48,086 nucleotides of DNA from a virus. Under the pieces are notes generated by a model, which saw only the letters and a program-made list of their open reading frames with translations, searched no databases and was not told the DNA's origin. Of the stretch, positions 2,107 through 22,837 are shown piece after piece. The position numbers and the translations under genes are program-made. How positions within the stretch are numbered: position 1 is the stretch's first letter; each line of letters opens with the position of its first letter. The stretch is from positions 1 through 48,086 of the IMG/VR virus record IMGVR_UViG_3300009609_000030; one strand, given 5' to 3'.

Positions 2107-2272
2107 GAAGGGGGTAGTAGTAGTGCTGGAATCCAAAGCTCTTAGATGCAGACCTACAGTAAGAGGGCCAATTTTTCTCTACACTAATATTAACTCTGAG
2201 GATACTACACTCTACTACCAGTACTCACATGAAATTGTTTTAATTGCTCACTTCAAAAAACTAAAGCAATGA
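2078..2272 (+). CDS. Small hypothetical phage protein, 64 aa (start placed at 2078)
   Basis: The frame is open from 1988, but the upstream 30 codons duplicate coding space of the previous gene. The ATG at 2078 follows AAGAAGAGAC, one of the few purine-rich, weakly Shine-Dalgarno-like leaders here, so this start is preferred. It overlaps the end of the previous gene by 29 bases. The product is basic and strand-rich (KPLVVTKKGVVVVLESKAL) and has one Cys. Its TGA stop overlaps the next start in an ATGA. I do not recognise it, and the exact start is uncertain. Confidence 0.5.
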   Translation: MTPKPLVVTKKGVVVVLESKALRCRPTVRGPIFLYTNINSEDTTLYYQYSHEIVLIAHFKKLKQ

Positions 2273-2751
2273 GTAGATTTGACAGCGAAGAATTTGACAG
2301 GATGTTTAACCTCAGTAAGAATGATGATATCTATGAGGATATACCTGACATACCCGGAGATGAAGAAGAGATGGAAGCAGAGGTAAAGGAATTTGCAGCA
2401 ATGATGGGTGAAACACCTGTAAAGGAAAAGGTCTTTGTTGCTGCTCCTGTGAACAGGAGTGGGAGATGTCCCTGCTGCAATGAGAACTGGGATGGAGGGG
2501 ATATCTTTGAGGAGCTATCAAAACTTGACATCTTTTTCATGATACCTAAAGAGGCTAAGAAGATGGCTGAGAAATATGGATGGACAGAGTGGGAGAAGAA
2601 AAGATTCTCCAATGTGATAGGGGTGGAGTTTGAAAAGCATCTTCAAAAGACCAACATGGTACAATGTCCTAAATGCCGGCATGTATTCAATGTGGTAACT
2701 GGTCAGCATTTCAGGTCACTCAATGAGGCAAGGAATAATCTATATGAGTGA
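2269..2751 (+). CDS. Zinc-ribbon-like phage protein, 160 aa
   Basis: The N-terminal 50 residues are strongly acidic (DIYEDIPDIPGDEEEMEAE). After that there are two Cys pairs, CPCC near residue 67 and CPKC near residue 134, separated by a helical stretch. This spacing fits a zinc ribbon with a long insert between the knuckles; the second knuckle is followed by RHVFNVVTG, typical of a ribbon strand. Such proteins often bind nucleic acid or a polymerase, but no specific role is visible. The gene starts in an ATGA overlap and is the last of the plus-strand operon, followed by the terminator at 2792-2833. Confidence 0.65.
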   Translation: MSRFDSEEFDRMFNLSKNDDIYEDIPDIPGDEEEMEAEVKEFAAMMGETPVKEKVFVAAPVNRSGRCPCCNENWDGGDIFEELSKLDIFFMIPKEAKKMAEKYGWTEWEKKRFSNVIGVEFEKHLQKTNMVQCPKCRHVFNVVTGQHFRSLNEARNNLYE

Positions 2752-2791
2752 AAATGGGTATCTTTATAGGCACTGGATGTGTGGCAAATAA

Positions 2792-2833
2792 GGGTCAGCG
2801 AGTAGCAATACTTCTGGCCCATTTTCTTTTTTT
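2792..2833 (+). terminator. Intrinsic terminator of the plus-strand operon
   Basis: A GGGTCAG arm at 2792-2798 pairs with CTGGCCC at 2814-2820 (one G-U pair in RNA). Inside it AGTA (2801-2804) pairs with TACT (2809-2812) around a GCAA tetraloop. The hairpin is followed by a T-rich run to 2833 (ATTTTCTTTTTTT). It lies 41 bases after the last plus-strand gene and ends 10 bases before the stop of the opposing gene, so it separates the convergent operons. A further outer repeat, AAAATGGG at 2751-2758 and CCCATTTT at 2818-2825, overlaps it and could form an alternative structure. Confidence 0.75.
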
Positions 2834-2842
2834 GATTACCAG

Positions 2843-5800: not shown

Positions 5801-7426
5801 ATTATAATTCATGAAGTTATTGGCCTTCTCTGAATTCTCACCCTCACCAAAGAAGACACCAGTAACACTATGATAGTCTTCAACTCCTAAAGTAGGATTA
5901 TTGCTATTATCCCACCTGACAATGCGAAGTTTACCTTCAGCAGAAATATCAGCCTTGTCAGATACTCCTTCAATTTCCATTACTGTCTCAATAAAATAAT
6001 CTCTTTGTGACTCAAAGCGGGCTAATGCATTCTTTTGCTTGGTGACATGCTGATCATAACCTTTTTCCCCCAGCACATCCACTAACTCTTTCCTGTGTGC
6101 TATAGCTTCAGCACTGGCAGCTCCTGATATTTCAGGAATAAGAGCAGGATTCATCATGATGGTATTCTGCCTCCTCCATCTCTTATGATCCTCAAAGGCT
6201 TTATTAACAGCTCTTGTTTTCTGTTTATAATCAAGATAGGTCAGGGCATCCTTGAACTTATCATCAAATTTATTAGCTACTGTATCACTGGCATCAAAGA
6301 ACTCTTTGACAAATCTTCTGACCAAGCCTCCTGTTTCATTACCATCCTTAGTGATCTCTTTGTATAACTGAAAAGATGCTCCTTTAAGACCTATGATTCC
6401 AGATCCCCGCAGAGAGTGTCCTTTCTTAATAAGAGCCTTCTGTACTCTTGGACTCATATCATCAATAGTAGTAGCTACACCTCTTGACCATGACAGCTTC
6501 TCTTCAAATGAATTGGCAAGATAAGTGAACATGGCCTGTGGGAGTAAACCATTAGTGGAGAAGATACCCTGAGTGATATCCATAGTCCACATATCAATGA
6601 AGTGTGTATCCTTCAAGCCTGATTGATTATAGACCAGTTCTTCAAAGCTGAACTTCTTATTACCATAAGTCCTCTTTACAGAGTAATCATTATTAACAGC
6701 ATTCTCCGTTATCTCCTGTTCTCTTTTATTAACAACACTCTGAAGGTCTTCAGCTTCCAGTCTCCATGCTTTGAATTTATTCATTAACTCAGCAGACTGT
6801 ACATAGACAGTAGTAAGTTTACCATCTGCATCTTTCACAAACATCTCTTCTTCAGTGAAGAAAGGATTATCCTTACCCAGTTCAAATGTACCAGCCTTTG
6901 TATAGAAGTCAATTAATCTCTGTGCCTCATGTATATCATCAATATTGGATGAATAGGCCAATGCTGTCAGTCTCTCCAAATCTCTTTCTACATAAAATCC
7001 TATAGCATCAATATCCCTTAGTTCCTCAAGGTCTTCAATCTCATCCATTATTCCTTTCTTGTCCAGTTCATAGCTACCCTTTATCTGAAGCTCAAGTACT
7101 CTCTCCTGTTTATTCAATGCAGTTATCTGTTCCTTGGTAAGGTCTTGCTTTTTCTTATCACGCTTAACCACATCAAGCCTTCTGCGGTATTCCAGTAATT
7201 GAGTCCTCTTGAATTCCACAAAATTGGCAAATGCTCCCTGTTCAGGAGGAACACTATTAGAGACAGGAAAGAAGCTGAGATTACTATTATGCAGTGTTCC
7301 TGTATTGTTCATGATATGCTCCTGCTCTATCCTGTTGGCAGCAAAGGGTCTGGTGAAATCAGGATGCTTCAGGAGTTCCTCTTCTGTATATTGTCTTCCC
7401 TTGTAGTTATATGAACATGCAGCCAT
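2843..7426 (-). CDS. Large virion cargo protein, 1527 aa (crAss-like, polymerase-associated block)
   Basis: This is the most downstream gene of the late operon. Its ATG follows the TAA of the giant polymerase gene with no gap (TAAATG), so translation is probably coupled. The N-terminus contains YKGRQYTEEEL, a short pattern I associate with very large phage ejected or cargo proteins. Long charged helical stretches follow (about 75-130 and 860-920). Near the C-terminus there is a Gly/Ala-rich hydrophobic stretch at about 1222-1257 and a second at about 1327-1345, followed by a highly charged tail. In crAss-like phages several very large proteins beside the RNA polymerase gene are packed inside the virion and delivered with DNA, and position and size match that class. 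Catalytic residues are not recognised. The hydrophobic segments could help membrane passage, but this is inference. Confidence 0.65.
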   Translation of the reverse strand: MAACSYNYKGRQYTEEELLKHPDFTRPFAANRIEQEHIMNNTGTLHNSNLSFFPVSNSVPPEQGAFANFVEFKRTQLLEYRRRLDVVKRDKKKQDLTKEQITALNKQERVLELQIKGSYELDKKGIMDEIEDLEELRDIDAIGFYVERDLERLTALAYSSNIDDIHEAQRLIDFYTKAGTFELGKDNPFFTEEEMFVKDADGKLTTVYVQSAELMNKFKAWRLEAEDLQSVVNKREQEITENAVNNDYSVKRTYGNKKFSFEELVYNQSGLKDTHFIDMWTMDITQGIFSTNGLLPQAMFTYLANSFEEKLSWSRGVATTIDDMSPRVQKALIKKGHSLRGSGIIGLKGASFQLYKEITKDGNETGGLVRRFVKEFFDASDTVANKFDDKFKDALTYLDYKQKTRAVNKAFEDHKRWRRQNTIMMNPALIPEISGAASAEAIAHRKELVDVLGEKGYDQHVTKQKNALARFESQRDYFIETVMEIEGVSDKADISAEGKLRIVRWDNSNNPTLGVEDYHSVTGVFFGEGENSEKANNFMNYNILVPRKNTVNIGIDKATNKYTFTDTTTSTGYYSKAYAEIEGDTDLAEFYDVVAEVCETIRENMPYSVQQGMAANTLPAMMKNSAEILADKNIGWMSALWLPFKHMIEKARMSFGVMKEGDVSYAVLDPITKRPNYKVNDQFLQGNKGAIDARMTIEKGKFLKQYNKGLPKSQQISSINRFTSIPLSSMSTSSLLSLAEYLHVNISLAEINAGKLDKIKERTGDSVQIGRFIGDYSRHSVVQSQSFDLGKICKYYSNMTMAYAARQEALPILQIMKKHYQSILEPTTTNIGVDKKTPDQKIMQYGLRTNAIKQMDDWFERVVLDNYGLKHGGVHGQEAVTSERIQKIDKRLKEIEEKLAANPNTSDLKSLIAEREKLTLKRAIPSFGSDIYSSEEKKQLKDIEDLLKDETDPEKIAELIKIKSRMGRARTATALFDNLIAWIRTLGLGYNVSSASTNLIEGVSSNMILASMGEHFDPKEIFPAYNIVKVSILKNVSFGLIEAGASRKNRKLMDRYSVIMDSRNELQKSSHKSFASKLSWAGPHEINQRVEFLNQSPLMIAMLRTIKIEDENGNKSSVWDAMDDKTGLLTGKFRTEKNINNWEKLKGEDYLVFKQSLNKAIVKAHGNYDELRGMMMKSKTAGKALAMFKTWLPMQLYSRFAIEQDDIQTGSIGYKGKYWSYGAGGAFTHIGVVATIASGPIAGVIWGLGGAIAGGLFGVNKGQSFSIVDVIKEVIYTNIQLFKKAVGMPINLLAGKQLIGSDKSFEKWVGKKNFDKQDAANMRANMADLSLQLAWMAGLLIVKALWWDDDKEKQKELMKKMTEQQKKDFKKELADERAKHNIAANKLMQLSQGAGQYINAPDLYNSIIGSNGVIRYLEETKKWIETIGNDEAKFRKESKKMFLPGIFKDPTSLGLETLSERQFKKSPFDEWFQSASKKATEQSKAERSERRAELQEEGLGEAEIRKILDKELPTPSQLRKKNRPKEK

Positions 7427-10400
7427 TTAACAAATTTTTTCTTGGTTACTTAATGAAGCTATGTAAGCACTGACTGATTCACTGGCACTGGGACTGAGAT
7501 TATCACCTGTAGGCCACAGGTCATTTTCATTAAAATACCCACCTTCAGTGGTATCATTCATATCACCATACTGTGCCTGATAAGGATCAAAGCCATCCCT
7601 GATATTCTCAGCCTCAATCAATTCAAATATATTATTAAAAGCTGCCTCTGCTACACTCCCAGGTTTTATATCCACACCCATAGCAGTCAGTATTGCATTA
7701 ATGATCTGTTTGAACTTGCTTAATGCACTTTGGTTTTCTCCTCCCATAGGAATATTAGAAAGATGAGCCTGAAACTTCTTATTGGTCATAGCCATAGTAA
7801 TAAACTCCTTCAGGTTGATCATGCCATAGAACTGATCTATTTCTGCCTGAGTTATTTTCTGCTTATTAGCCATAGCAGCAGCTATCCTCTCCACCTCACC
7901 TTTTGGCATGCTATTCTTTACCCTGTTATACAACATGATAAGATTAGAGACATAAGCAGGAGCATCACTGGTCTTCACCTGTGGATTAGCAGTATCCAGA
8001 CCATCAATATAAGGCATAAGCTGCCTGACAGTAACACCATGCACTACTTCATGCATAAAGGTATCTGCCAGCTTATCAGCATTGCTGAGTATTGACTCTT
8101 TTATATAAATGGTATTACCAGTGGCTTCATAAACACCAAGGGCTGTAGCATGTGACTCTTCCCCTATCATGATACTATCCATAGTGACCACCTTGATACC
8201 ATCAACAAAAGGAATTAATTCTTTAGCCAGTAAAGCAAAAGGAGTTGTACTCTTACTGATATTAGTGACCATCTTTGTAACATCACCACCAGTCTTGATA
8301 TCAAAGTTATTGGTCACTGTATCAGGATTCTCCTCTTCTATTATTGGTGCTGGTTTAGGTCTGAAGGCCATCCTTGTATTGATAGAAGATACTCCCATAT
8401 CTACAGCAGGTTGGTATTCATCCATACCAAAAGCTCCCAGTATAGGAATCCTGACATACCTTCCAGTTGTTCCATCAAGCCAGTATAACTTGAACTTCTT
8501 ATCCCCCTTCATTACAGTAGTGTCATAGACTGATACAAAGGTTGGCTTCCTGCCATCTATGAAAGTAAAAGTTCCATCAGGATGCATAAGAGCAGCAGCA
8601 GCCAGTTTCTTAGCATCATACTTGGCTTGTACTCTCTCAGGGTAGTGCTGGATATACTGCATGGTGAACCTGCTTACAAAATGCTTATCAGTACCATCAT
8701 CCTTCTTCATTTTAAGACCCAACAGGGTGGAGTCATAATGAAACCTGTCATTATTTTTCCTCATGGCAAGGGAATAGCCCATTGCATTGAGGTAAGCTAC
8801 AGGGACATACTTGGTATATTGTATGGCTTCCTGTACTGCATTACCAAGATAAGCTGCCAGTATCATGTCCTGTGCCAGTTCATCAAGAGTATACTCCTTG
8901 CCGTTAAAGGAAGGTAACTGTATCTTGCTTCCATCAGGATTTCTCTCTGTCAGCATCATTGACATAGAATCATAAAGGTACTGCTCATCAAACTCCTCTC
9001 CATCTGCATTGTTATACTTAACAAGTGAAGGCATACCATTCTTTTGGATACCATCAAACTCAAACCTGTTAAGTAACTTGTTGGTCTTGATATATTCATC
9101 TATGGTCTTGTCACCTATTGTATTCTTTAGTCCCTTGATATAAGTAGCCAGTGACCTGTTTGTATCAGTATCAATATATAATCTTGCCCTCTCTGCATTG
9201 ACCTCATCATTAGTCAGGCCATTGCCTTGTTCAGCAGCTAAAAACTTCTTGACATTCTGGAAGATGTGCTGTTTCTTTTCCACATTGCTTAATTCCAATC
9301 CTTTTTCTGTAGTAGTGACACCTAATATTTCCTTGAAGACCTCTTCCATATTCTTGGTATCATAAGGAAAGAACCTGCTCCACAGGTTATAAGCCAGTGT
9401 GACTCCATTGATGCTGAAGCCTCCTGATAATGTTTCAGGTAGTACCATATACTGACCTATATCCATGTAACCCAGTTTTTGTAACTCCTGTAGCCTGCTG
9501 GCAGGTAAGCCTGCTTTGCGGATATAGTCCCCTATCAGGGCTGAAGCTCCCTGAATAGTGTCAGTATCCACTCCAAGTTTATTCAGCTTCTCCCTCTTAT
9601 CAATGACATCAAAGAAGGACTTGCCCAATCCCTTGGAGTCTGTATTGATACTGGTCTGTATTCCCCTGACAGCTATACCATACTTTCTCATATCCAAGAA
9701 CCTGTTAAGCACAGCTCTCTGTATAAGAGCATCAGGCTTCAATGCTCTGATACCTGTCCTGAAGTTATCATTATTCATCAGGTCAGAGGTCACCTCTTCA
9801 TATTTAAGAGGATCAACATTCTCCCATGTCTTCTCAGGATCATACTTAGCAATCAGTTTATCTATTACAGCCTGTTCCTTATCTTCTGAAAACTCTGCCA
9901 TGATAGAATTAATGTTCTTCATTTCCAGTACAAAGTCTCGTATAATAGGTTGAGATAAGAATAGAAATGGAATGGAGTCACCATCTGCTCCTTTATCAAT
10001 ACCTGTAAGCATGAACATCTTGAATACATCAAGGGTCATATCATTAAGGCCAACCCTGCCCATTACTTGCAGCTTTTCATTGTCCACTGCTATCTGCTGG
10101 GCTTCAGTTACTACCTCTGCTATATCCCTGCCCTTATCTCTTGTAGCAAAGCCACCCAGTTCAGGGTCAGAAGTAACTGTACCAAACCTCCATGTCTTGG
10201 GGATTTTTTTCTTTGCTCCTTCTTTTTCTGATGTAGGGTCATCTATCACTTCTATTAATGTGATAGGCTTACCAGATATTCTTGCCTGTTGAGCCATAGA
10301 ATGGAATACCACATCCAAAGAGAAAGCACCAGTAGCTATTTTACCTGAAGCTCCTGATATCAGTTTGGCCTTCTGGTATTCATCACTTAAAGGAGTCCAG

Positions 10401-13400
10401 TAAGTACTATCCCTGTCAAGGTTAGTAAGCTCCTCAATCTTCATGGCTTGCTTCTCAGCAAACTTAGTATTCAGTACCCTTGCAATCTTAGCCTGTAATT
10501 TAGGATCAGGATTATTGAATACAGCATGGTTGATCTTAATAAGCTCATTCTGCATCAGCTTCTCATTGATCTTGGAGTTAAGCCTGCGGAGATACTTATT
10601 CTCTTCAAAGTCCTGTTCATCATAAGCTGCTGCTTCAAACAGGGTATTAAGAAGATGAGTTTCCCGTATCTTAGTCCTGACTTTATCCATTACATGCTTC
10701 TTGGCATTTGGGCCTTCAGCTTCCTCATACTCCTTTCTTAATTCAGCCAGGTCAGCCTTCTTCATTTCCCTGTCAGCATCAAAGAGTAATTCCCTTCTGT
10801 GCTTTTCCTGAAGCATTTCCAGCTTGCCTTCTTTAGTAGTATGTGTCCAGAACTGGTAGGAGTTCTCCTTATCCACATCAAAGTCCAAACCTTTTTGCTT
10901 AGTAAAGTTCTTGGGGACTATCATGAGGTCAGCACTCTGAGCAGGCAGGAAACCAGCTATCTCAATCTGTGAAGCTGATTGGTGACCTGATGTTGGAATT
11001 CTGAAGGACAGCATAGATAAGAGTTCCTTATCAAACATATCCTGCTTCAAGGTAAAACCCCCTCCTGCCTTTTGTTCAATGTAAATATACTTACCATCTA
11101 CCTTCTTGAACAGGTCTATCAGATTACCATCAGCTCCTTTGAATTTAGAGGCCATGAATACCTGTGCCTTCTTCATGGTGCCACCTTCATCTACAGTAGA
11201 GGTCAGATGAGTACCATTCCATGCAGAGGTATAGATAATCTGTGATGTGTCAACTCCCTGTATGTTACTGGGGTATTCTTCATTTAAAATTTCTGCTAAA
11301 GCTCTTGCTTGAGAGACTTTACTGGAAGCAAACTTATCAGTAAGAGTTTTGTCTTTTGCTTTCTGAGCAAGGTCTTTTAATAATTCAGGATTTTCATTAA
11401 GATAAGTTTTCCATAGTTGTTTGTATTCTTCCCATTGCTGCTGTTCAGTTATATCTCTTAGAGGTTTTTTACCTTTACCTAATCTCCAGTTATCACCCTG
11501 AGTTCTATAACCTTTTACATCAAGTTGATAAGCTTCTTCAATAGTTCTGCCATCATTTAATTTTGCATATAAAGCACTAAATCTTTTATCACCAGCAGAA
11601 GATACTTCATAACTATTATCCTGATATCTTGCCCAAGTGTAATTACCAGTCATCTCCAGTTTCTTTCTGATAAATCCTTCTTCACTACCTACTACAGAAG
11701 ACACTCCTGGGAATTTCATCTTGATTATCCTGTTAGTAATGATAGCATTGAGCATGCTTTCATACCTGTTGGAATTAGAGGATGCCCACAGGGGAAGATT
11801 GAACTCTCCATCAATAAGAGTTAAGCCTTCAATATCCTGCAAGGGATAGCCTCTCTTGATAGCCTCATTCTTTAACAAGTCCTGAAGTTTAGCCATTGAC
11901 CTGTTTGCATTCTTGGGAATGCCAAACTCATCAAGGCCAAGCTCATCAAATAGCTGAGCTTTCTTTTCCTTGACCAGATTAAGAAACAGGTCATTGTACT
12001 CCTTATGTAATGAAGTTCCTGTTCTGGGTTCTCCATTGTAGCTGAAACCATTGAAGTTCATGATCTCATCCCCAAAGAGCAGCTTCATTAATTGAGTTCC
12101 CAGTGAGATAGTATCTTCTCCCTGCTTACCACTCTTGAAAGGTACATCCTGCTGTATCCTGAAGTTCTTTCTGTCAAGAATTAATACAGGAGAACTTTCC
12201 ATACCAGCAGGTATATCTGCATGATCATTTAAATGTTCAGTGATAGTACCATCTTCATTCCATAAAGCAAGTGGAGTAGTTAAAGCACCAACCTTATTAG
12301 CTGATTGATATGAAGCTCTGACATTCATCTTGTTAGATTTTTGTATCTGCTCCATTTTAATTCTCAACTTATCAATCTCCATTCCCTTGGTGAGCTGAGG
12401 AATAAGAGGGAAAGATGAACACTTAATATATACCACTCTCATCATGTCCTGCTTCTCATCATGCATCCTTCCTGTATAAACAGGCTTCATAGGCTGCATG
12501 ATCTTGGTGATAAGCTGTTGTTGTGTGGGAGTAATAGGTTCACCCTTCTCAAATATCTCAGCAGCCTCATTCAGTTGCTCTTGGGTAATATCCATTAAGC
12601 CATCACCATTTTTACCCAAGCGGGATAAGATATCAAGATGCTCCTTCCATGTAGTATATTCCTGACCATCAGCAGCCTCAATGTCCCTGTAAGCTGCTGC
12701 TCCTTCTTTACCTAATATCTTCTCAAGATATTCAATGTTCTCAGCTACCACACCTTTCCTGTCAGCAAGCATAAGCTGCAGGTATTGTTCCTTTGCTGAG
12801 TTAGCCAGTCCAGTTCCGGGAGCTATCTGGTTAGCCAGCCTCTTACCTACATTGGTGAAGACATCTTTGGCTACCTGTACATCATATTCAAGATCAGTCT
12901 TAAACTTAGCTCTTGTAGTAGTATCATCCACTTTATACATCTGTGCAGGGTCTCCAATGATTGCCATGAAAGAATTGGAATTAGCTACCAAACTATTGAT
13001 AACATAGTCCATAGCTGCCATAGTAGCTCTTTGCCTATTATCTCCCCTGAATTTATCCATGTACTTCTTATCAAAGAATTGCAAGGACACTTTACCATCA
13101 GCATCAGTCTTGGTTATACCATCTGTTTCCCATACTTTAAGCTTCTCTTTTACCAAACTCTCTACATAGCTCCTGATCTCATTATTAAAACCTTTCTTAA
13201 CTTCTTCATTCTGCTCTAAGAATTGGAGGTTAAAGTCAGCAGGCTGATTGTATATCAGGTCAACTAACCTATCTCCATTCAACCTGATTTTATCATTGAG
13301 TGCTGGCATATTCAGAAACATCTTAGCTCCTGCATCATAGGACTTGACATTAGTTTTATGATTTAATTCAGCATGTTTTATCATTCTTTTAAGCTCTGGC

Positions 13401-16400
13401 TTGACCACCTGTTCATAGATAACCTTAACAACTTCATCTGTTATACCACCATCCCCGTTATTGAGATCAGCATTCTGAAAATGAAGAACAGCAGTGGTTA
13501 TCAGTGTCATCACTTCCTTATCTGACATGGTGGGAGAGAACATGGTAGCCATCCTCATGGCTATATCAGTGCCGGGATATTTATTCAGGACTGCTTTACT
13601 ATCATCAGCCTGAAGCTCTACTTCTCCCTGTGTCATATCACAGAAGAATCCCAGTTTGTCAAGCTCATGGTCAGTGTCAGCCAGCTTGGTGATCCCAGTA
13701 TCCTTATACAGCTTCTTCCCCTGCTGTTTAAAGGCAGTGAGACCTATATGAGAGACTTTGAACAGTGTCCTGAACTTAGGGCTGCTCTTCAGGCATTGCA
13801 GCCACAGGGAGGGACTTGAATAAGATGTGCTCATCAGGTTCTTAAGCAGGGCATGGTTATCAGGGTCTTTCAGCTCCATTACTGTATCAGTGATAGATTT
13901 ACGGGCTGTAAGGGCAAAGATAGATTTACCAGCATCCCTGAAGGCAAAGGGAGAGATAGAAGTGTTATACTTGGCATCAACAACAGCCAGTGATCCTATT
14001 ACAGAATCATCCAGCAGGTTATCACCTTCCTCTGTAAAATCATGAACTCCTTCCTTCTCTACCAGTAATTTTAACTTTAGATGCAGTATATGGAATAGTC
14101 CATTGCCACTGGTGAACAGGTCTGCTGTACTCCTCTTTCCATAGTTATGATACATACCACTGGTCAATATCTCTGATAGTGTATCAGGATGAAGTTCTAT
14201 CCCCAATTCTCTCAACCACTTATCTACACTCTCATTGCTCTTTATATCCTGCTTGTCAATACTGGCTATCTTAAATTCATTGTCACTTACTCTTGTCACC
14301 TGAAAATCCTGCCCCTTCATAGAGAACTGCACCCTTGTGGTTTGACCAGTCAGGTTTTGATTAAGCCATGCTAACAACTCACCTATAGGCTTTATGTTCA
14401 TGGTCTTGGCAGGTCTTCCAGCAGCTTTATCTGTAGCAGCTACAGCAGGCTTAACCTGATCCACAGTTGGCCTGTAGCCTGACATATCAAGTGGAATCTT
14501 GGTAAGGCCAATACCCAACCATGATTCATATTGCTTTATCAGGTACTTTGCCCTCTCCTTATTGAAAACATAGTGACCAGTAACATCATCAACCATTACT
14601 ATATCCTTTCCATTTTCAGTTAGATTACCCCTCCATTCTTTCTCTATTGCATCAGCTACTCCACTTAAGTTAGTATCATATACTTTAGTAGTCCATGTTC
14701 CAGTCATCTTATTCTCAGTGATCATGACAAACTTCATCCTGAGACTGGAGTTATCCATTGCTGTTACAAACTGGCTCTTCTTCTGGTTTGTTGTGCTTTC
14801 AAGTCTCCTGATAACTTCAGCCATCCAAGGTACAGTCTTAACATGAGTCTTCAACTTGGCTATCATGGTATCAAAGTCAGCAGGTGTATCAGCCAAAGCT
14901 GTCATTAATCTTCTCACTACTTCATCTGAACCAACATAAGTATCCAATCCCAGGAACCCTTTCATTATCTTACCATCCTTGTCATACTCATTTATCTGCC
15001 CAAAGAATCTTCTCATAGAGTATGTCAGCTTCTGTTCAGGAGATTCTGTCAGTACATTAGTGGAGAAATCACCACCAAATAAAACCTCTTCTTCTGTTGA
15101 ATTGGTTTCAGGGTTCTCTTCACTGGATTGCTGATCATTCTCTTTCTCATTGGTAACCTTGTCCTCTGTTATTCCAGTGTACTTGGCTACCCTGTTATAA
15201 GCCTCTTCCTGTAATACATCAAAGCTCTCCCTGACAGCTTCTATCTGGGCAAGTCTCTTCTCATAAGTAGCTATGTTTGATGTCATCTTTGAATTAGCAA
15301 ACTGGGGAAACTTGGCTATCAGTTCTTTGGCAATTCTAACTTCTTCTTTGTGATGTGTTTCAATAGGAGCTATAGTCTTATCAAAAGCTGCCTTCACCTC
15401 TCCATCCACCATAGTCCTGCTTACTGCCACACTATCCAAGTCCACCATTGCAACAATCTGGTTATATATGAAGTCCACTATATCAAATTGCTGGTCAGGA
15501 GTAAGACCTGCTATTCTTAATAGTGACTCTTTTACATATTCTATCTGTGCCTCTGTCATTGGAGTAGGTGCATAACTGGCTTGTGGAGCAAGATCAGGTA
15601 ACTTCTCTCCCTCATTAAATTCCTTACCCAATCCTTTCTCAGCTCTGGCTAACCATTCTGCCATAGCCTTCTCAGCCATCTCTTCAGCACTTGGCCCTTC
15701 AAGTTTAGGTTCACCGGGAGGAGTTACTTCCTCTTCTTCTTCTACCACTGTCCCTTTTTTAGGTGTCTCCACTTCTCTTTCCTCCTCCATCTTCTTAGCC
15801 ATCTCATCATTAGTAGGAGCATGTCTTTGCTTATCCAGATTTGATACCAGATCAAAAGTGATCACAGGCTGTATATTGGTTACATAATTTGGCTCAGCAG
15901 CAGTACCAATATTATGAGACCTCACATTAGTCTTGATCCTGTCAAGCAGGTAATCCTTATAGCTGGGAGAAGTTTTATTAGTGGTATATTCAGCACCTAT
16001 AGTGATGATGGGCTTATTAGCATTAAGATTGGGAAGATCAACATTCTGTTCAAAGTAATCAAGGATACCTGACTTTGCAAAATCTTCCACTACCTTGTCA
16101 ATGATTTTAGGATCAGTGACATTAGGATTGATATACTGGGAACCCACTCCCTTACCTTTAGCATTGGTAAAGGAATTCTGTCCTGTTCTCCCAAATATAA
16201 TATGTCCACCCTGCAAAGCAACAAAGGGAGTTCCCGGAGCAAGATTAGCTCTTGCTGCTCCTTCAACTACCTCTCCATAGGTCTGATTAACTCCAGCCTT
16301 TGTCTTTGAATTGAATATCAGCATGAAGTGATTGAGATAAGCTTCAATACCTGCTGGGCTATAGATATCAATACCCATCTCTGTCCTGATAGTATCTACT

Positions 16401-19400
16401 ACAGCCTGATGCTTGTCAGACTTCTTAGGATTACTTCTATGGGCATATATATAAATAGCCCTCAGTACAGAAGCTCTTGCATCCTTATCCAGTTTATCCC
16501 TGAAGGTTGGGAATCCCATATAGGTCTTCTTGCCATCACTGTTGGTTCCATATCTTCTTACATCTATAATTGCCCCCTTCCTGAAGTGCTCAATGTTCAT
16601 AAGTACATCAGTATCATTAGGGAACCTGACACCTAATTCTCCTCTTGCAGTATTAAGACTGGTTGCTGTCATAGCTATGGTCAGCTCAGTGTCAGGATTA
16701 GCTTCACGAAGAGTGATATTATTATATTCAGTACCCTTGTTGGTCTTTAGTCCTTCAAAGGTGGTTTGACGTTTTTCAGTGATCTCAATAGGAGTTGCTG
16801 CTCTCCTGTCAGCCAGCACAGCTTCCCTGATCTGTCTTGTATGAGCAATGGCATTAGCCATAGCCTGAGAAGAATCCTGATCAAACCTTTCAGGATGATA
16901 CCAGCCAACATCATGTACAAAGGCAAGACCCTTCTGGCCTGAGAGACTTTTACCCTTATCATAAATGATCATAGGAATCTTGTCAAGGTACTCAGGTGAA
17001 TCAGGAGTAATGTGAGGATTCTGTGCCAAGTACTGCCCAAAGGTGATAGCAGTTCCTTTAGTGCCATCTGGATTAAACATAGGAACTTTAATCTCAAGGT
17101 GATTAGCAGGAATCATGATCTCCATTGCAGTACCTGCCACATACCTGTCAGGGTCTAGCAATTGCAGGCTGTCAACATACTCTCCTACATTCAATTCATC
17201 AGCAGTATATTCAAAGGAAATCTCTATTCCCTCATCAGTCTGTGTCCTGACAACAGTGGCAAACTTTGTAAGGAAAGCAAACTTGGGTGAAGACTCATTA
17301 GTAACATAAACTCTCTTACCCACTTTATCTTTATAGAAATACTTGGGTTGACTATTAGGATCAAATTGAGTTTGCCCATTAGCTTTAGCCTCCACTGGTG
17401 CAATAGTGACATCAGTAGCATCACTTAATTTCTTGTTGGTATTAATCATTCCCCTTCCACTCTCCACAAAGTCATTCATAGGATCACCAAATATCTTGGT
17501 ATAGATAGAAGCATAATCCTGTGGGGGCATATTGTTCTTCTCCCAACCATAGACAGCAGCATTAAAAAGTTCATCAGCCACACCAATCCCCTGAACCTTT
17601 GCAATGTGTCTTATCAAATCTTCAAAGTTAGGCTCACCACCAAGTCTTGCTATCAGTCCTGCAACACTGGTAACTACTTTATCCTTTGTCTCCTGTGGTG
17701 AACCTTCAATATCAAGAGGCTCAGGGGCAAAGCTGGTAGAAGCTTCAGGAGACATGGAACCTAAATCCAGTTTAGTCCCTCCTGTATCTTCAGGATCACC
17801 AGTAGTCTTCTTACCCTTCATGCCATTGATGTAGTCATTGTCTGCACTGAACATATCAAAGTTACTTGATACAGAAGAAGCATTCTGTTGTGCTACAACA
17901 GCCTGAGCAGCTTCAGCAGCAGCTATCTCACTCTCCTTCTTATTAGCAGCTTCCGTCTCCTCTGCTGTAGCACCCCCAGGTTTATTAGCTGCCGCATCCT
18001 TGGTATTCTGTACCTGTGCTCTTGTCCTAGCCTTATTAATTGATTCTTTATTTCTTTGATCAAGGTATTTGGGATTATTCCACAAAGCAATATTTTTCCT
18101 CTGAAGTGCTATGGCATTCTCAAGATGAACGTTATCCTTATTTAATCTCTGGTAAGCAGGACTTGTAAGTGCTGACCTGATAATGTCACTGTCTTTCTCT
18201 TTTTCTTCAGCAGCATAAGTATCATCGGTTGCAATTTCCTGTAGCCTGTCATTGATTTTAGTAAGTTTAAGTTCATTACTCTTGATCAGGGCATTTATAT
18301 TATCTCTCTCCATCTGGTTCTCTGTAGCCCTGTGCTGTTCTGTGAGTCTTGCTCTTTCAAGATGAAGACTGAGTAAATCATACTCAGCTTCATATTGCTC
18401 CCTTCCATAACTTGATAACAGGTCATATTGTGTGAGTTTGGTTTTTGCTCCTGCCAGTTTAAGGTCATGCTGTGATTTCTCCTGTAATAATTTATTAAGC
18501 TGGAAGTGATCTGAAGTGACTTCAGGAACAAAGTTCTTATTGTATTTATCTTTAACTGAATCATAGATGGCTTTTAGTTCATGAGCATCATCAATACTAT
18601 CCTGAAAGTTCTTCTTCACATATTCAATCTGCTCTGGTGTAGGACTTTCAAAACCTACATCCTGCAAGGCTTCAGCTTTTCCATTGGTCACATCATCCAG
18701 AGTTCCCTGCAGGTATGCTATGTGAGCATTAAAGGCAGTATCCTTATCTGTCATAGCATCATAGTGAATACCTCCCAGTGCTTTCTTATTCCTGAATTGC
18801 CTGCGAACTATATCAGCTTCCTTATGCTTGCCTTGTTGCTGCAATAGCATTATCTCCATTCCTATTGCACTATCCATCTTGCCTACATTCTTTACATAGT
18901 CATTATGAAGTTCATTAAGCATCCTTGTTCTGCCTCCATCAATGGCCTTGTTAGTCAGCTTCATAAATCCTCCAATGATAGGAGAACCAATTACACCACC
19001 AGCAAAGTTGTTCCAGAATTCATCCTCTCCTACTGCTCCTCCCACTCTGCCAAGGAAAGTGGTAGCATCATCCATACCCCCCAGTACTCTTGCATAGTGC
19101 TTACCTTCACTGGAGGCTATATATTGCAGTCCCTCTTCAGTACCTTCTGTTAAACCTGTTACACCAAACTGGGTTGCTCCTCTTAAATATTTATTACCAA
19201 TCTTAGCCAGTCCTCTTTCAATCAACCCTGTACTTGAACCACTGATAGGATTAAATACCATTGTCCTGTAGCCAAGGATATCCAAGGGAAGAAGAGCCAT
19301 GTTACCCATGTAAGTCCTGTCAGCACCAGCATTGGCATATTCTTCTACCTCCTGTGCAGTGTACTTGGCACTACCATCAGGATTCTTCATAGCTGTCATC

Positions 19401-20137
19401 TCATCAGTGATCTCCTTGTGAGACATCATAGCTTCCATCCTTGATTCATTGGTTCTGCTGAGAACACCATAAGTAGTGGCAGCACTCCTTAAATCCTTGA
19501 CCCTGCTTGCCATCTTTGCTGCTGCTGCTACACCTTCAGTATCCCTGACCCTTTTAAACAGGCTTGCCAGCTTTCCTAAAGCTGCTCCTGTTCCCAGTCC
19601 CATTGTAGCTCCTTCTATAGCTGCTGTCTGAAGTAAAGCAAATGCACCCATACCCAAGCCTGTACCTGCTGAAGCTGTCTGCTCCATAAGCCAAGCAAAG
19701 GAACCGGGTTCAAATTCTCCGGGATTAACTCTCTTGATTTCATTATTGCGGGCTACACCCATAGCCCATTCATGCATATCCTCAGTGGATATTCCAAACA
19801 GTTTACTCTGGTAGTTATCATTACCCCATGAAGCTACATCAACCATGTTAGCTACACCCTGACCAAAACCTGAAGCAAAGTTTGCTCCAAGTTGTGTAAG
19901 ACCCCTGCCTAACTGTTCCATCTTACCCTGTTGCTGGGCATCCATTGTCCTTAGTGTCTTTGGATCATCATACACAGAAGGATTAACAAGATTGGGATAG
20001 TCTTCAGGATCAAACCTGCCCAGATTTCTTGAAGTCTCCTTTGCAGTGACATTTCCAAAAGTATTAGGAACACTGTCAGCACCACCTAAAAAATCTTTTG
20101 CCTGTAAAGGCTCCTTGCCATAGGTTTTTGTTGTCAT
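7427..20137 (-). CDS. Giant virion RNA polymerase polyprotein with C-terminal zincin motif, 4236 aa
   Basis: The key evidence is DFDVD at residues 3085-3089 in the context KGLDFDVDKENSYQF, preceded by the strand-rich segment IEIAGFLPAQSADLMIVP. This matches the DFDID-type metal-binding loop of the phi14:2 gp66 / crAss virion RNA polymerases, which belong to the double-psi beta-barrel polymerases related to eukaryotic RNA-dependent enzymes. A second conserved-looking region, QQDVPFKSGKQGEDTISLGTQL with Lys at 2668, would fit the other barrel. The N-terminal 400 residues have Gly/Ala-rich hydrophobic stretches (about 85-105 and 150-200) like those of ejected virion proteins. Residues 640-740 are charged and helical, and acidic low-complexity linkers follow, around 1450-1500 and 1680. 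Near the C-terminus HEVVH at 4029-4033, with Glu4111 downstream, looks like a zinc metallopeptidase site. It starts in an ATGA overlap with the previous gene. From the family, it should be packaged and transcribe early genes. Fusion of these parts makes it much longer than the roughly 2200-residue phi14:2 enzyme as I recall it. Confidence 0.85.
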   Translation of the reverse strand: MTTKTYGKEPLQAKDFLGGADSVPNTFGNVTAKETSRNLGRFDPEDYPNLVNPSVYDDPKTLRTMDAQQQGKMEQLGRGLTQLGANFASGFGQGVANMVDVASWGNDNYQSKLFGISTEDMHEWAMGVARNNEIKRVNPGEFEPGSFAWLMEQTASAGTGLGMGAFALLQTAAIEGATMGLGTGAALGKLASLFKRVRDTEGVAAAAKMASRVKDLRSAATTYGVLSRTNESRMEAMMSHKEITDEMTAMKNPDGSAKYTAQEVEEYANAGADRTYMGNMALLPLDILGYRTMVFNPISGSSTGLIERGLAKIGNKYLRGATQFGVTGLTEGTEEGLQYIASSEGKHYARVLGGMDDATTFLGRVGGAVGEDEFWNNFAGGVIGSPIIGGFMKLTNKAIDGGRTRMLNELHNDYVKNVGKMDSAIGMEIMLLQQQGKHKEADIVRRQFRNKKALGGIHYDAMTDKDTAFNAHIAYLQGTLDDVTNGKAEALQDVGFESPTPEQIEYVKKNFQDSIDDAHELKAIYDSVKDKYNKNFVPEVTSDHFQLNKLLQEKSQHDLKLAGAKTKLTQYDLLSSYGREQYEAEYDLLSLHLERARLTEQHRATENQMERDNINALIKSNELKLTKINDRLQEIATDDTYAAEEKEKDSDIIRSALTSPAYQRLNKDNVHLENAIALQRKNIALWNNPKYLDQRNKESINKARTRAQVQNTKDAAANKPGGATAEETEAANKKESEIAAAEAAQAVVAQQNASSVSSNFDMFSADNDYINGMKGKKTTGDPEDTGGTKLDLGSMSPEASTSFAPEPLDIEGSPQETKDKVVTSVAGLIARLGGEPNFEDLIRHIAKVQGIGVADELFNAAVYGWEKNNMPPQDYASIYTKIFGDPMNDFVESGRGMINTNKKLSDATDVTIAPVEAKANGQTQFDPNSQPKYFYKDKVGKRVYVTNESSPKFAFLTKFATVVRTQTDEGIEISFEYTADELNVGEYVDSLQLLDPDRYVAGTAMEIMIPANHLEIKVPMFNPDGTKGTAITFGQYLAQNPHITPDSPEYLDKIPMIIYDKGKSLSGQKGLAFVHDVGWYHPERFDQDSSQAMANAIAHTRQIREAVLADRRAATPIEITEKRQTTFEGLKTNKGTEYNNITLREANPDTELTIAMTATSLNTARGELGVRFPNDTDVLMNIEHFRKGAIIDVRRYGTNSDGKKTYMGFPTFRDKLDKDARASVLRAIYIYAHRSNPKKSDKHQAVVDTIRTEMGIDIYSPAGIEAYLNHFMLIFNSKTKAGVNQTYGEVVEGAARANLAPGTPFVALQGGHIIFGRTGQNSFTNAKGKGVGSQYINPNVTDPKIIDKVVEDFAKSGILDYFEQNVDLPNLNANKPIITIGAEYTTNKTSPSYKDYLLDRIKTNVRSHNIGTAAEPNYVTNIQPVITFDLVSNLDKQRHAPTNDEMAKKMEEEREVETPKKGTVVEEEEEVTPPGEPKLEGPSAEEMAEKAMAEWLARAEKGLGKEFNEGEKLPDLAPQASYAPTPMTEAQIEYVKESLLRIAGLTPDQQFDIVDFIYNQIVAMVDLDSVAVSRTMVDGEVKAAFDKTIAPIETHHKEEVRIAKELIAKFPQFANSKMTSNIATYEKRLAQIEAVRESFDVLQEEAYNRVAKYTGITEDKVTNEKENDQQSSEENPETNSTEEEVLFGGDFSTNVLTESPEQKLTYSMRRFFGQINEYDKDGKIMKGFLGLDTYVGSDEVVRRLMTALADTPADFDTMIAKLKTHVKTVPWMAEVIRRLESTTNQKKSQFVTAMDNSSLRMKFVMITENKMTGTWTTKVYDTNLSGVADAIEKEWRGNLTENGKDIVMVDDVTGHYVFNKERAKYLIKQYESWLGIGLTKIPLDMSGYRPTVDQVKPAVAATDKAAGRPAKTMNIKPIGELLAWLNQNLTGQTTRVQFSMKGQDFQVTRVSDNEFKIASIDKQDIKSNESVDKWLRELGIELHPDTLSEILTSGMYHNYGKRSTADLFTSGNGLFHILHLKLKLLVEKEGVHDFTEEGDNLLDDSVIGSLAVVDAKYNTSISPFAFRDAGKSIFALTARKSITDTVMELKDPDNHALLKNLMSTSYSSPSLWLQCLKSSPKFRTLFKVSHIGLTAFKQQGKKLYKDTGITKLADTDHELDKLGFFCDMTQGEVELQADDSKAVLNKYPGTDIAMRMATMFSPTMSDKEVMTLITTAVLHFQNADLNNGDGGITDEVVKVIYEQVVKPELKRMIKHAELNHKTNVKSYDAGAKMFLNMPALNDKIRLNGDRLVDLIYNQPADFNLQFLEQNEEVKKGFNNEIRSYVESLVKEKLKVWETDGITKTDADGKVSLQFFDKKYMDKFRGDNRQRATMAAMDYVINSLVANSNSFMAIIGDPAQMYKVDDTTTRAKFKTDLEYDVQVAKDVFTNVGKRLANQIAPGTGLANSAKEQYLQLMLADRKGVVAENIEYLEKILGKEGAAAYRDIEAADGQEYTTWKEHLDILSRLGKNGDGLMDITQEQLNEAAEIFEKGEPITPTQQQLITKIMQPMKPVYTGRMHDEKQDMMRVVYIKCSSFPLIPQLTKGMEIDKLRIKMEQIQKSNKMNVRASYQSANKVGALTTPLALWNEDGTITEHLNDHADIPAGMESSPVLILDRKNFRIQQDVPFKSGKQGEDTISLGTQLMKLLFGDEIMNFNGFSYNGEPRTGTSLHKEYNDLFLNLVKEKKAQLFDELGLDEFGIPKNANRSMAKLQDLLKNEAIKRGYPLQDIEGLTLIDGEFNLPLWASSNSNRYESMLNAIITNRIIKMKFPGVSSVVGSEEGFIRKKLEMTGNYTWARYQDNSYEVSSAGDKRFSALYAKLNDGRTIEEAYQLDVKGYRTQGDNWRLGKGKKPLRDITEQQQWEEYKQLWKTYLNENPELLKDLAQKAKDKTLTDKFASSKVSQARALAEILNEEYPSNIQGVDTSQIIYTSAWNGTHLTSTVDEGGTMKKAQVFMASKFKGADGNLIDLFKKVDGKYIYIEQKAGGGFTLKQDMFDKELLSMLSFRIPTSGHQSASQIEIAGFLPAQSADLMIVPKNFTKQKGLDFDVDKENSYQFWTHTTKEGKLEMLQEKHRRELLFDADREMKKADLAELRKEYEEAEGPNAKKHVMDKVRTKIRETHLLNTLFEAAAYDEQDFEENKYLRRLNSKINEKLMQNELIKINHAVFNNPDPKLQAKIARVLNTKFAEKQAMKIEELTNLDRDSTYWTPLSDEYQKAKLISGASGKIATGAFSLDVVFHSMAQQARISGKPITLIEVIDDPTSEKEGAKKKIPKTWRFGTVTSDPELGGFATRDKGRDIAEVVTEAQQIAVDNEKLQVMGRVGLNDMTLDVFKMFMLTGIDKGADGDSIPFLFLSQPIIRDFVLEMKNINSIMAEFSEDKEQAVIDKLIAKYDPEKTWENVDPLKYEEVTSDLMNNDNFRTGIRALKPDALIQRAVLNRFLDMRKYGIAVRGIQTSINTDSKGLGKSFFDVIDKREKLNKLGVDTDTIQGASALIGDYIRKAGLPASRLQELQKLGYMDIGQYMVLPETLSGGFSINGVTLAYNLWSRFFPYDTKNMEEVFKEILGVTTTEKGLELSNVEKKQHIFQNVKKFLAAEQGNGLTNDEVNAERARLYIDTDTNRSLATYIKGLKNTIGDKTIDEYIKTNKLLNRFEFDGIQKNGMPSLVKYNNADGEEFDEQYLYDSMSMMLTERNPDGSKIQLPSFNGKEYTLDELAQDMILAAYLGNAVQEAIQYTKYVPVAYLNAMGYSLAMRKNNDRFHYDSTLLGLKMKKDDGTDKHFVSRFTMQYIQHYPERVQAKYDAKKLAAAALMHPDGTFTFIDGRKPTFVSVYDTTVMKGDKKFKLYWLDGTTGRYVRIPILGAFGMDEYQPAVDMGVSSINTRMAFRPKPAPIIEEENPDTVTNNFDIKTGGDVTKMVTNISKSTTPFALLAKELIPFVDGIKVVTMDSIMIGEESHATALGVYEATGNTIYIKESILSNADKLADTFMHEVVHGVTVRQLMPYIDGLDTANPQVKTSDAPAYVSNLIMLYNRVKNSMPKGEVERIAAAMANKQKITQAEIDQFYGMINLKEFITMAMTNKKFQAHLSNIPMGGENQSALSKFKQIINAILTAMGVDIKPGSVAEAAFNNIFELIEAENIRDGFDPYQAQYGDMNDTTEGGYFNENDLWPTGDNLSPSASESVSAYIASLSNQEKIC

Positions 20138-22821
20138 CTCATTCTGGCTCTTTGTTGTTTTAAATACTCAATAAGGTCTTCCTTACCATTGAACACTCCC
20201 GGAATACCTGACTTAGGCATTGCATCTCTGTCTCTAAGCTGTCCTTTAGCAGGATCACCCAATGCAATTAACTCTCCTCCCAATGTTCTTCTTGCAATGA
20301 TATGTTCCTGTCCATCTTCACCCCTGTAACTTGTTATGGTAAGTGGTATATTCCTATCCCCATTCTTAATAGATATACCATACGTGTTAGAGTCCTTGGT
20401 TCCTGTAGTTTCCAATGTCTTCTGCATACTTGGTATCATCAACTGTCTTCTTATGTCATTACTTTCATCATCCATTAATGAACCAGCTATCTCTCTTACA
20501 TCAGGAGATTTATCCATCATCATCCTTTGTCCCACTATCTTTTGAACTTCAGGAGTAAGCTCAATATAATAAGGACTGGTATTTAATTTTCCATTAGGGT
20601 CTTTGAAGGTAACCTTCACCATTGCACCACCAGTACCAATGTTAGTAGTATTACCCACCATTTCAAACTTTGTTTCAACATTTTCATCTACTATATATTG
20701 TTGCAGGTTCTTACCACCTACATTATCCAGTGTTACATTGTAAGTACCATTCTTACCCTTAAGCTCTGCTCCCCCAGGATTTATTCCCCTGTTGGTAAAC
20801 AGTTTCATTCCCTGAGTATTAGCAAATACAATAGAACCTATGGCCTTGCTGTCCTCCTTACTAAGTAGAATAGACGGAGTATCTATGACCTGATATTTCA
20901 TATCATTCATTACATTATCTCTTCTTTTATCCACCTTGTTCTTCACTGCCATATACTCTGTAAGCTCATCTTTCTTCTTTCTGTGTTCAGGTGTACCTAT
21001 TTTCTGCCAGTCAGCAAACCATTTGGTCATCTTATTAGCATAAGCACCACCACTGGCAAATGGAGAATCCTGTGCTGTACCTGCAAGACTTTCAGAAAGA
21101 GCTATGGCATCCCTGTCATTCTCATACTTCTTATAAATATCTATCTCTCTCTGTGTTAAAGGCTTATCACCAGTTACCATTGTCTTCTCATTATTTGCCA
21201 ATACAGCTTCAGTAGTTCTACCATACCATTGCCTTGTCCTGTCAAGATCAGATTGTATAGTGGGTAACTGTTGTTGCAGATCCTGCTTCCTGAGTTTCAG
21301 GTTATTATAAGTGTTCCTTTCATTTACATTAAGATCAGCTTCTCTCCTGTTACCCAATAGCATAGCTTCCTGTGCCTGAATATCCTTCAACTCTTTATTG
21401 ATACCAGCTATCTGGTCTTTCTTATTCATGATATCAGAAGACAGACCAGCATTAGAGAATGCATCAACCTGTAGACCTGTCTTTCTATCTGTAGTTTTCT
21501 TTTCTGCAAAAGAACCTGTAGCCAGCCTGCTTACAGATGATTGATCAGGTAATGCAACTTCGGGTCTTGTTCCACCTAATCTTACTTCTCTTGACCAGTT
21601 CAGTTCAAGATTATCATTGTGTATCTTCTCCCTTGCTGCTATATTAAGTTTGGCAATATCCATAGCATTCTGCAAGCCAGCACCAAATCTCTTATTCCTG
21701 CCATACTCCAAATACTTAGTTGAGCCAGCAGCATTGTTCCTTAATTCCTGAAGGTCTTCAGTTTCACTCCAGCTATACTGTCCAAGAAGACTCTGTACCA
21801 TAGGTGCAAGAGAACTCTTCTCATTCCAGTTTACCTTAGTCCTTTCCTTCAGGTCAGCCTCATACTGGTCTAGTTTAGTTTGAAGCTCTGCTTTGATAGC
21901 CGGCTTCTTTTCTTTGGCTATCATTCCCTTCAGATTATCAATATTCTTCTTCTCTGTTGGTGATACATCCACAGCCCCATAACTATAAGGAGCAATATAA
22001 TTACCCTGTTCATCAAATACTCCCTGCATAAGACCTACAGTTTGTCTTTCCCTCATGTAGTTTTGATACAGTGGATCAGTTAGTCTTCCAGCAGCTATAG
22101 CCAGTAACCTCTCAGGAGTGACTCCCTTCCATTTCTCTGTTTTATCATCAAAATAAAACTCCTCACCTGTTACTGCACTCCTTTTATACTTCTTACTATC
22201 AGCCTTGATCTTTTCCAGTTCCTTACTTATCTCCCCCCTGATATCAATCTTGGCCATAGGAGTAAATAAAGCACCAGCAGTACCAGTGTATTCTCCTGTG
22301 GCAGGATCATAACCAGTACCTACCCTGCCTCTTGCTGCTGCCTTCTCCCTGTACTTGTCCCTCATATATCCTTTATAAGCTCTTGCCTCATTGGGGTCAA
22401 GACCTTTACCTGTCTTTGCATATTCCTTTACCTGTTCATCAATGGCATCATTCACTGCCTTGAATTCACCATGAGTCTGTATTATCTTTGAAATCTCACC
22501 TGTCTTGTAATCAGTTTGTATATCCCTTGATAATGCCCTGATAGGTTCTTGCTGCTTTCTCCAGTTGGCAGGATCAACTAACATGGCCTTAACAATATCA
22601 TCAGCCTTCGTGGAATACTGATCAGCTATTCTTTTGGCATCCTGCTCATCATCTATATCATGAGCAAATGTAGTTCCCAGTACCCTTTGCTGTTCAGTAG
22701 TAGCAAGCCTTTGATTAACAAATGTATCATTAGCCTTGATCACTCTTTCCATAAGAGGGACATTCAGCTTGTACATATAATCCAGGGGAGTTGCACTAGC
22801 TGTCTTGTAAAATCTAGCCAT
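20134..22821 (-). CDS. Virion cargo protein, 895 aa
   Basis: This soluble, charged, mostly helical protein lies between the 943-residue cargo gene and the giant polymerase gene, whose start it overlaps by 4 bases. Coiled-coil-like stretches occur around residues 290-325 and 455-520 (rich in K, E, Q and L). The last 250 residues are more strand-like (NGTYNVTLDNVGGKNLQQYI). There is no signal peptide or clear membrane segment. In crAss-like phages the gene immediately upstream of the polymerase usually encodes an internal virion protein, and that is the basis of the call. No enzyme motif was found. Confidence 0.6.
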   Translation of the reverse strand: MARFYKTASATPLDYMYKLNVPLMERVIKANDTFVNQRLATTEQQRVLGTTFAHDIDDEQDAKRIADQYSTKADDIVKAMLVDPANWRKQQEPIRALSRDIQTDYKTGEISKIIQTHGEFKAVNDAIDEQVKEYAKTGKGLDPNEARAYKGYMRDKYREKAAARGRVGTGYDPATGEYTGTAGALFTPMAKIDIRGEISKELEKIKADSKKYKRSAVTGEEFYFDDKTEKWKGVTPERLLAIAAGRLTDPLYQNYMRERQTVGLMQGVFDEQGNYIAPYSYGAVDVSPTEKKNIDNLKGMIAKEKKPAIKAELQTKLDQYEADLKERTKVNWNEKSSLAPMVQSLLGQYSWSETEDLQELRNNAAGSTKYLEYGRNKRFGAGLQNAMDIAKLNIAAREKIHNDNLELNWSREVRLGGTRPEVALPDQSSVSRLATGSFAEKKTTDRKTGLQVDAFSNAGLSSDIMNKKDQIAGINKELKDIQAQEAMLLGNRREADLNVNERNTYNNLKLRKQDLQQQLPTIQSDLDRTRQWYGRTTEAVLANNEKTMVTGDKPLTQREIDIYKKYENDRDAIALSESLAGTAQDSPFASGGAYANKMTKWFADWQKIGTPEHRKKKDELTEYMAVKNKVDKRRDNVMNDMKYQVIDTPSILLSKEDSKAIGSIVFANTQGMKLFTNRGINPGGAELKGKNGTYNVTLDNVGGKNLQQYIVDENVETKFEMVGNTTNIGTGGAMVKVTFKDPNGKLNTSPYYIELTPEVQKIVGQRMMMDKSPDVREIAGSLMDDESNDIRRQLMIPSMQKTLETTGTKDSNTYGISIKNGDRNIPLTITSYRGEDGQEHIIARRTLGGELIALGDPAKGQLRDRDAMPKSGIPGVFNGKEDLIEYLKQQRARMR

Positions 22822-22837
22822 AATATGTTAAAGGGAT

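Follow-up and report, generated by a model that had tools for sequence, protein, structure and literature searches.

A fused entry, RNA polymerase and zincin-type cargo protein in a crAss-like phage, and terminal cysteines where such modules are encoded separately

The virion RNA polymerases (RNAPs) phi14:2 gp66 (PDB 6VR4) and crAss001 gp50 are among the closest described counterparts of the protein analyzed here. In phi14:2, the virion carries this enzyme, which transcribes the early genes (PMC7886860, PMC10136315), and phi14:2 g065–g067 are annotated as virion proteins from MS/MS. In p-crAssphage, gp45 is annotated as a "putative RNAP associated protein fused to zincin protease", again within the transcription cargo block, while the Fipvunavirus phages FpV4, Fpv1, and Fpv20 encode a giant protein annotated only as structural. 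N4 virion RNAP gp50 (Schitoviridae) is likewise a giant, Cys-free injected chain in which an HExxH domain follows the polymerase (PMC12633501, PMC3715699), though this polymerase is of the T7-type single-subunit kind. Thermus phage P23-45 gp96 is one virion chain of 5002 residues with DxDxD RNAP, membrane, and metallopeptidase domains; however, this phage is long-tailed, and its polymerase forms the N-terminus of the tape measure protein (PMC10770324). Multi-domain injected proteins with a zincin-like metallopeptidase, for which self-processing was proposed in 2017, have been described as polyvalent proteins; RNAP examples in the accessible text of that study are N4-type, and two-barrel crAss polymerases are not treated there (Iyer 2017; PMC5512222). 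How giant cargo proteins are ordered and threaded through the tail has been named as a matter for further study (PMC10172136, PMC12633501).

The window, that is, the whole 48,086-nucleotide stretch of IMG/VR record IMGVR_UViG_3300009609_000030 that was analyzed, encodes a single protein combining modules that are distributed over several genes in some of these systems. We denote the modules A (entry), R (RNAP), Z (zincin), and S (RNAP-associated). Start codons were taken throughout as the first ATG. The relevant features are as follows:

46500..47957, minus strand: major capsid protein (phmmer match to crAss001 gp32, 7QOF, E 4.7e-30)
20134..25669, minus strand: two more proteins in cargo position, of 895 and 943 aa, with zero Cys (from gene position)
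7427..20137, minus strand: 4236-aa cargo polyprotein A-R-Z (ATG-start ORF, translation)
18902..19993, minus strand: conserved start of module A, residues 49–412, homologous to crAss002 gp32 68–487 (hhalign)
8438..15250, minus strand: module R, complete crAss-type two-barrel RNAP, residues ~1630–3900 (hhalign, PDB profile, predicted fold)
11270..11656, minus strand: phrog_9995-type domain, residues ~2828–2956, inserted upstream of the catalytic loop (phrog_9995, E 4e-48)
10871..10885, minus strand: DFDVD catalytic metal-binding loop, residues 3085–3089 (aligned with DFDID of phi14:2 gp66)
7613..8302, minus strand: module Z, zincin-type domain, residues ~3946–4175 (alignment A3, hhalign, profile matches)
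8039..8053, minus strand: HEVVH, residues 4029–4033, within a predicted helix (alignment A3, model)
7805..7807, minus strand: Glu4111, presumed third zinc ligand, on a second predicted helix (invariant EF columns in A3, model)
7430..7432, minus strand: Cys4236, last residue, presumed joint Cys facing the next cargo protein (Cys rule, below)
2843..7426, minus strand: module S, 1527-aa RNAP-associated protein beginning MAAC (hhalign of the family)
7415..7417, minus strand: Cys4 of module S, presumed partner of Cys4236 (Cys rule)

The match of the capsid protein to crAss001 gp32 indicates that the phage is crAss-like, and this protein together with the cargo and transcription block modules recovered by hhalign places it in a Crassvirales-type group. 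By gene position, as in crAss phages, the 895- and 943-aa proteins are probably cargo as well. At least 20 IMG/VR contigs encode full-length relatives of the 4236-aa protein, as do the Flavobacterium phages FpV4, Fpv1, and Fpv20; two IMG/VR contigs, 73.8 and 101.3 kb long, encode an identical protein (100%). Single-sequence scans with this protein recovered near-identical contigs only. Pfam and NCBIfam searches with the whole protein and with pieces of it gave no usable match; hits to TcdA1_RBD_3, eIF_4G1, and XopD were weak, fell under the curated cut-offs, and were discarded. The residues highlighted in the preliminary description—DFDVD at 3085, HEVVH at 4029, and Glu4111, within KEF, 78 residues past His4033—were all found in the translation.

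Module R comprises the polymerase. hhalign pairs residues ~1630–3900 with phi14:2 gp66 167–2086 and with crAss001 gp50 178–2320 (probability 97.5–99.9), indicating that the whole enzyme is present, beyond the catalytic loop. Searching the PDB by phmmer with the full 4236-aa protein returned nothing; a family profile was needed, and it gave a convincing match to 6VR4 only (E 1.4e-24). By tblastn, residues 2070–2835 match phi14:2 gp66 (4e-10) and crAss002. Structure prediction, the check set in advance for the fold around the DFDVD loop, yielded an AlphaFold model of residues 2240–3420 with a mean pLDDT of 78.8, for which a Foldseek comparison with the PDB returned the two-barrel polymerase 6VR4 (E 1.5e-28, probability 1.00), far ahead of QDE-1 and other two-barrel polymerases. 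Sequence and predicted fold thus both bear out the earlier assignment to the crAss/phi14:2 type. The polymerase region, whose sequence matches 6VR4 alone, does not belong with the N4-type (T7-like single-subunit) polymerases; only the HExxH domain is common to the window protein and N4. Homology over the full length of module R, the DxDxD motif, the fold, and the gene neighborhood are shared with phi14:2 gp66 and crAss001 gp50; unlike these, the window RNAP is fused to an upstream entry module and a zincin, and carries the phrog_9995-type insert.

The D[FY]D[VI]D loop hardly varies across ~25 relatives, nor does its context (DLMIVPKNFTKQKGLDFDVDKE); DxDxD is present in all those aligned, an HExxH motif lies ~950 residues downstream of the loop, and the EF pair never changes. 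Shuffling a protein of this composition would be expected to yield HExxH 0.08 times and a plain DxDxD 1.4 times; given the conservation among the relatives, neither motif is attributable to chance. Over the polymerase region, identity to the nearest relative, L013, is 75%. In another (L050 4025–17434), the RNAP gene is split within the polymerase, 268 residues before DFDVD.

The phrog_9995-type insert (~128 residues) is missing from the FpV phages and from L013. Stand-alone ORFs of phiKZ-like phages (PHIKZ082.1) share 52–57% identity with it, and ORFs on cyanobacterial plasmids up to 61%. Related inserts occur at a similar RNAP site in L009 (69% identity) and within an unrelated giant protein in L010 (53%); a sub-threshold Pfam hint points to DUF488-N3i (2.4e-4). 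Matches to phiKZ-like Pseudomonas phages were considered as distant RNAP relatives and rejected, being confined to this inserted domain.

In 21 relatives (alignment A3), the Gly, HExxH (except the first His), Tyr, and Glu-Phe columns of the zincin-type domain are invariant or nearly so. hhalign relates the domain to phi14:2 gp65 166–354 (probability 96.5) and crAss002 gp32 1757–1916 (probability 90), and its profile matches the HExxH domain of N4 virion RNAP (E 2.5e-4 to 3.7e-4), the internal virion protein 9SFN (E 1.3e-5), and phi14:2 gp65. The predicted model (pLDDT 82) contains strands, an HExxH helix, and a Glu helix, placing HEVVH and Glu4111 on two helices; comparison of this model with PDB folds gave no significant match, the best zincin-like one having probability 0.57 and E 0.79. 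Family conservation and the profile matches to the N4, phi14:2 gp65, and crAss002 gp32 HExxH domains support the zincin-type domain proposed earlier at HEVVH, and the HExxH motif followed by a Glu on the next helix agrees with the zincin-like metallopeptidases of polyvalent proteins. Judging from these residues, the domain may be an active peptidase. The first His is replaced by Glu in L028 (EEVVH) and L049 (EELVH), where the remaining domain is kept, and the complete relatives L057 and L060 have no HExxH in any of their three cargo proteins; the domain therefore appears usually intact but dispensable. The HEAFH at the C-terminal end of crAss001 gp47 was tried as a member of the same zincin family and rejected, as the profile does not join them; it may represent a different clade.

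The position of HExxH within the chains is restricted. In RNAP-bearing chains, it lies 1282–2134 residues before DxDxD or 814–1267 after it, with none in the intervening 2100; in S chains, most HExxH motifs lie within 400 residues of the start. These spacings place the motif mainly at the A-R or R-S joints. HExxH occurs twice in some cargo chains, in certain cases once per joint (L048, ~1784 and ~4251; L051, ~653 and ~3661; the S chain of L105, ~471 and ~739).

At the start of module A, residues 49–412 share homology with gp32, a crAss002 cargo protein (probability 94 and E 1.4e-7 by hhalign). The preliminary description had read this region as an ejection-type N-terminus on account of its hydrophobic stretches. 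Gly/Ala stretches do exist, at 156–194, 280–298, and 378–396; their 19-residue Kyte-Doolittle means reach only ~1.0–1.2, and they are consequently not clear membrane spans. The claim that one chain combines delivery, transcription, and proteolysis accordingly retains the polymerase, the zincin-type domain, and the homology of the entry region, and loses hydrophobicity as a sign of ejection. Though that description seemed to imply a fusion without precedent, the RNAP–zincin fusion is conserved among relatives and is of a kind already known from polyvalent proteins, N4 virion RNAP, P23-45, and p-crAssphage gp45.

The next gene encodes module S, whose family is related by hhalign to the C-terminal part of phi14:2 gp65 (probability 96.7) and to crAss001 gp49 (probability 97.7). 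Gene boundaries shift among these modules by fusion and fission. With a bar marking a gene break, the window and the FpV phages have the architecture A-R-Z|S, phi14:2 has A|R|Z-S, and crAss002 and p-crAssphage have A-Z|R-S. The FpV proteins thus share the module order, the terminal Cys, and the S neighbor with the window protein at ~30% identity, whereas in p-crAssphage the zincin ends module A, and R is fused to S (the gp44 RNAP fusion) and not to A.

Cysteines follow these boundaries. In 92 clusters, a Cys occurs within 10 residues of the end at 226 of 234 ends that face a gene break and at 4 of 146 outer ends. Break-facing ends consist of the R end (82/84), the S start (81/84), the R start where A is separate (34/35), and the A end (29/31); the outer ends divide into 2/43, 0/27, and 2/76. 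Among 187 neighboring ORFs, a Cys lies within the first 10 residues in 13 and within the last 10 in 17 (7–9%). Interiors of the cargo modules A, R, and S are nearly free of Cys (85/468,626 residues, 0.018%) as compared with neighboring ORFs (814/92,827, 0.88%), a depletion that is weaker in gut Intestiviridae, with 6–17 Cys in RS chains. Joint Cys positions vary from residue 2 to 7 from the start and from 1 to 9 from the end. The window protein has three internal Cys; the 4287-aa chain of FpV4 has a single Cys, the penultimate residue. In phi14:2, the only Cys of gp67 is its last residue (1797), gp66 has one at residue 3 and another at 2179 of its 2180, and the single Cys of gp65 is residue 3. 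Seven further annotated genomes, in which the interiors are less strongly depleted, have Cys at 15/15 break ends and 0/13 outer ends.

Whether A is fused or separate agrees with the absence or presence of a Cys at the R start in 75/75 chains; fusion removes the Cys. The tree requires at least eight changes of architecture, five of them imposed by branches with good support, and the independent pairs are all in agreement; with five supported pairs, a sign test alone cannot reach 0.05. Individual genomes provide further natural experiments. In crAss001, A (gp47) and R (gp50) lie on opposite strands, and the rule is still obeyed. Where the RNAP itself is broken, in L050, the upstream part ends in DKKCE and the downstream part begins with MACE, so that both new ends carry a Cys. 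In L115 (5005 aa) and L123 (3998 aa), apparently all cargo modules are fused, and the chains contain zero Cys. Exceptions, which were checked singly, mostly dissolve on inspection: L051 and L081 were scored as fused, yet upstream of each lies a separate chain with one Cys; the RNAPs of L084 and L087 are truncated; the next ORF in L070 is another gene; the Cys of L058 and L102 lie 32 and 18 residues from the end, respectively; and the start of the RNAP ORF in L113 is uncertain. The S protein of L085 (1167 aa) bears a Cys near either end, at residues 4 and 1166; under the train model proposed below, that phage would be predicted to have a fourth car. The only related report found on such a Cys pattern describes a Cys-free N4-like virion RNAP (PMC3715699); the literature searched, a set lying outside the phi14:2 structure paper and Yutin 2018, makes no mention of terminal joint Cys.

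These sequence patterns make it probable that the window protein represents a three-module injected cargo in fused form, the modules of which, where separately encoded, are joined head-to-tail by Cys pairs. Somewhat less firmly, we favor the broader reading that crAss-like phages use one Cys pair per gene break to assemble a single redox-cleavable train of fixed order, in which fusion and Cys pair would be interchangeable. The cargo set would be injected before the DNA, with A as the entry segment, R as the virion RNAP for early genes, and S as an associated protein; Z would sit at a joint. In the window, where the gene for S follows that for the A-R-Z chain, the joint would run from Cys4236 to Cys4 of module S. 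Separately encoded neighbors would each contribute one Cys on the facing ends, most likely forming a head-to-tail disulfide, and fused neighbors would need none. The rest of the train would be nearly Cys-free so that unfolding and threading through the tail and the oxidizing periplasm could proceed without snagging; passage through the tail and a disulfide-forming periplasm has been given as the explanation for Cys-free N4-like virion RNAPs (PMC3715699). Reduction in the cytoplasm would free the pieces, and the zincin might also cut at the joint. Module identities, fusions and fissions, the Cys rule, and the placement of zincins at joints are seen in the sequences; we infer that the cargo would be packaged in the window phage, that the thiols would form disulfide bonds, that ejection would follow the order A-R-S, and that release would be cytoplasmic. 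Because virions assemble in the reducing cytoplasm, such a disulfide would have to form late; virion disulfides do occur in crAss001, in its tail (PMC10172136). The sequence pattern would look no different if the ends shared a mixed metal site or were linked through their thiols in another way. Linkage would not be a general need, since N4 injects with a single Cys-free chain: its ejected proteins gp50, gp51, and gp52 (L136 6524–19524) all lack Cys, the tail protein gp53 has four, and the one-chain polymerase, having no joints, has no terminal Cys. Thioredoxin-like genes lie near the cargo block in several crAss genomes, namely L138 (14396–14665), L139 (26978–28245), L140 (28304–28573), and L141 (27230–27499); they are possible reducers of the proposed disulfides, or may simply serve nucleotide reduction.

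The terminal Cys might instead reflect something other than a link between chains: a junction motif in the DNA or for translation coupling, homodimer bonds, or a tag for degradation or anchoring. Most of the terminal Cys codons are TGT (215/234), as AT-rich genomes would give, and the sequence is compatible with homodimers. We nevertheless regard this reading as quite improbable, as the outer ends lack Cys and fusion removes it, while tags or homodimers should be indifferent to the fusion of a neighbor. The opposite strands of A and R in crAss001 and the variable position of the Cys also count against it; on these grounds, and for want of an intein domain, a DNA junction motif, translation coupling, and inteins were rejected as sources of the pattern.

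For the zincin-type domain, the preliminary description had suggested that it cuts the polyprotein itself and so releases an active polymerase during maturation or injection. Retention of HExxH and the Glu in nearly all relatives and their placement mainly at joints of RNAP-bearing chains speak for this, as does the same proposal for polyvalent proteins, citing processing of phage P1 DdrB, in the accessible text of Iyer 2017 (PMC5512222). However, that text also has N4 virion RNAP, with its related domain, packaged unprocessed, and the recombinant full-length N4 chain has been solved (PMC12633501). The degraded motifs of L028 and L049, the lack of HExxH in the three cargo proteins of L057 and L060, the location of the phi14:2 domain on a different polypeptide from the polymerase, and the lack of a known cleavage site further render self-processing unlikely. 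A less doubtful possibility, though still a tentative one, is that the domain is a delivered effector cutting host proteins, an alternative listed in the accessible text of Iyer 2017 (PMC5512222), or a structural packaging domain that no longer cuts. A structural role would agree with the encapsidation requirement reported there for the N4 region containing the domain and with the two relatives that lose the motif and keep the fold; yet if purely structural, it would leave unexplained why most relatives retain the Glu and both His, and an effector role offers no reason for the strict placement at joints. Under the proposed train of Cys-linked modules, the question shifts from whether the fusion exists to what the peptidase does at each joint.

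The proposed train bears on the open question of how phages order several giant folded proteins and thread them through a narrow tail. The Cys rule predicts which proteins are neighbors in the train, their order A-R-S, and a redox switch for release, and it provides a cheap and concrete test on cultured phages (phi14:2, crAss001, crAss002, and the FpV phages). With such a train, it would also make sense that gene boundaries within the crAss transcription block shift repeatedly without loss of function.
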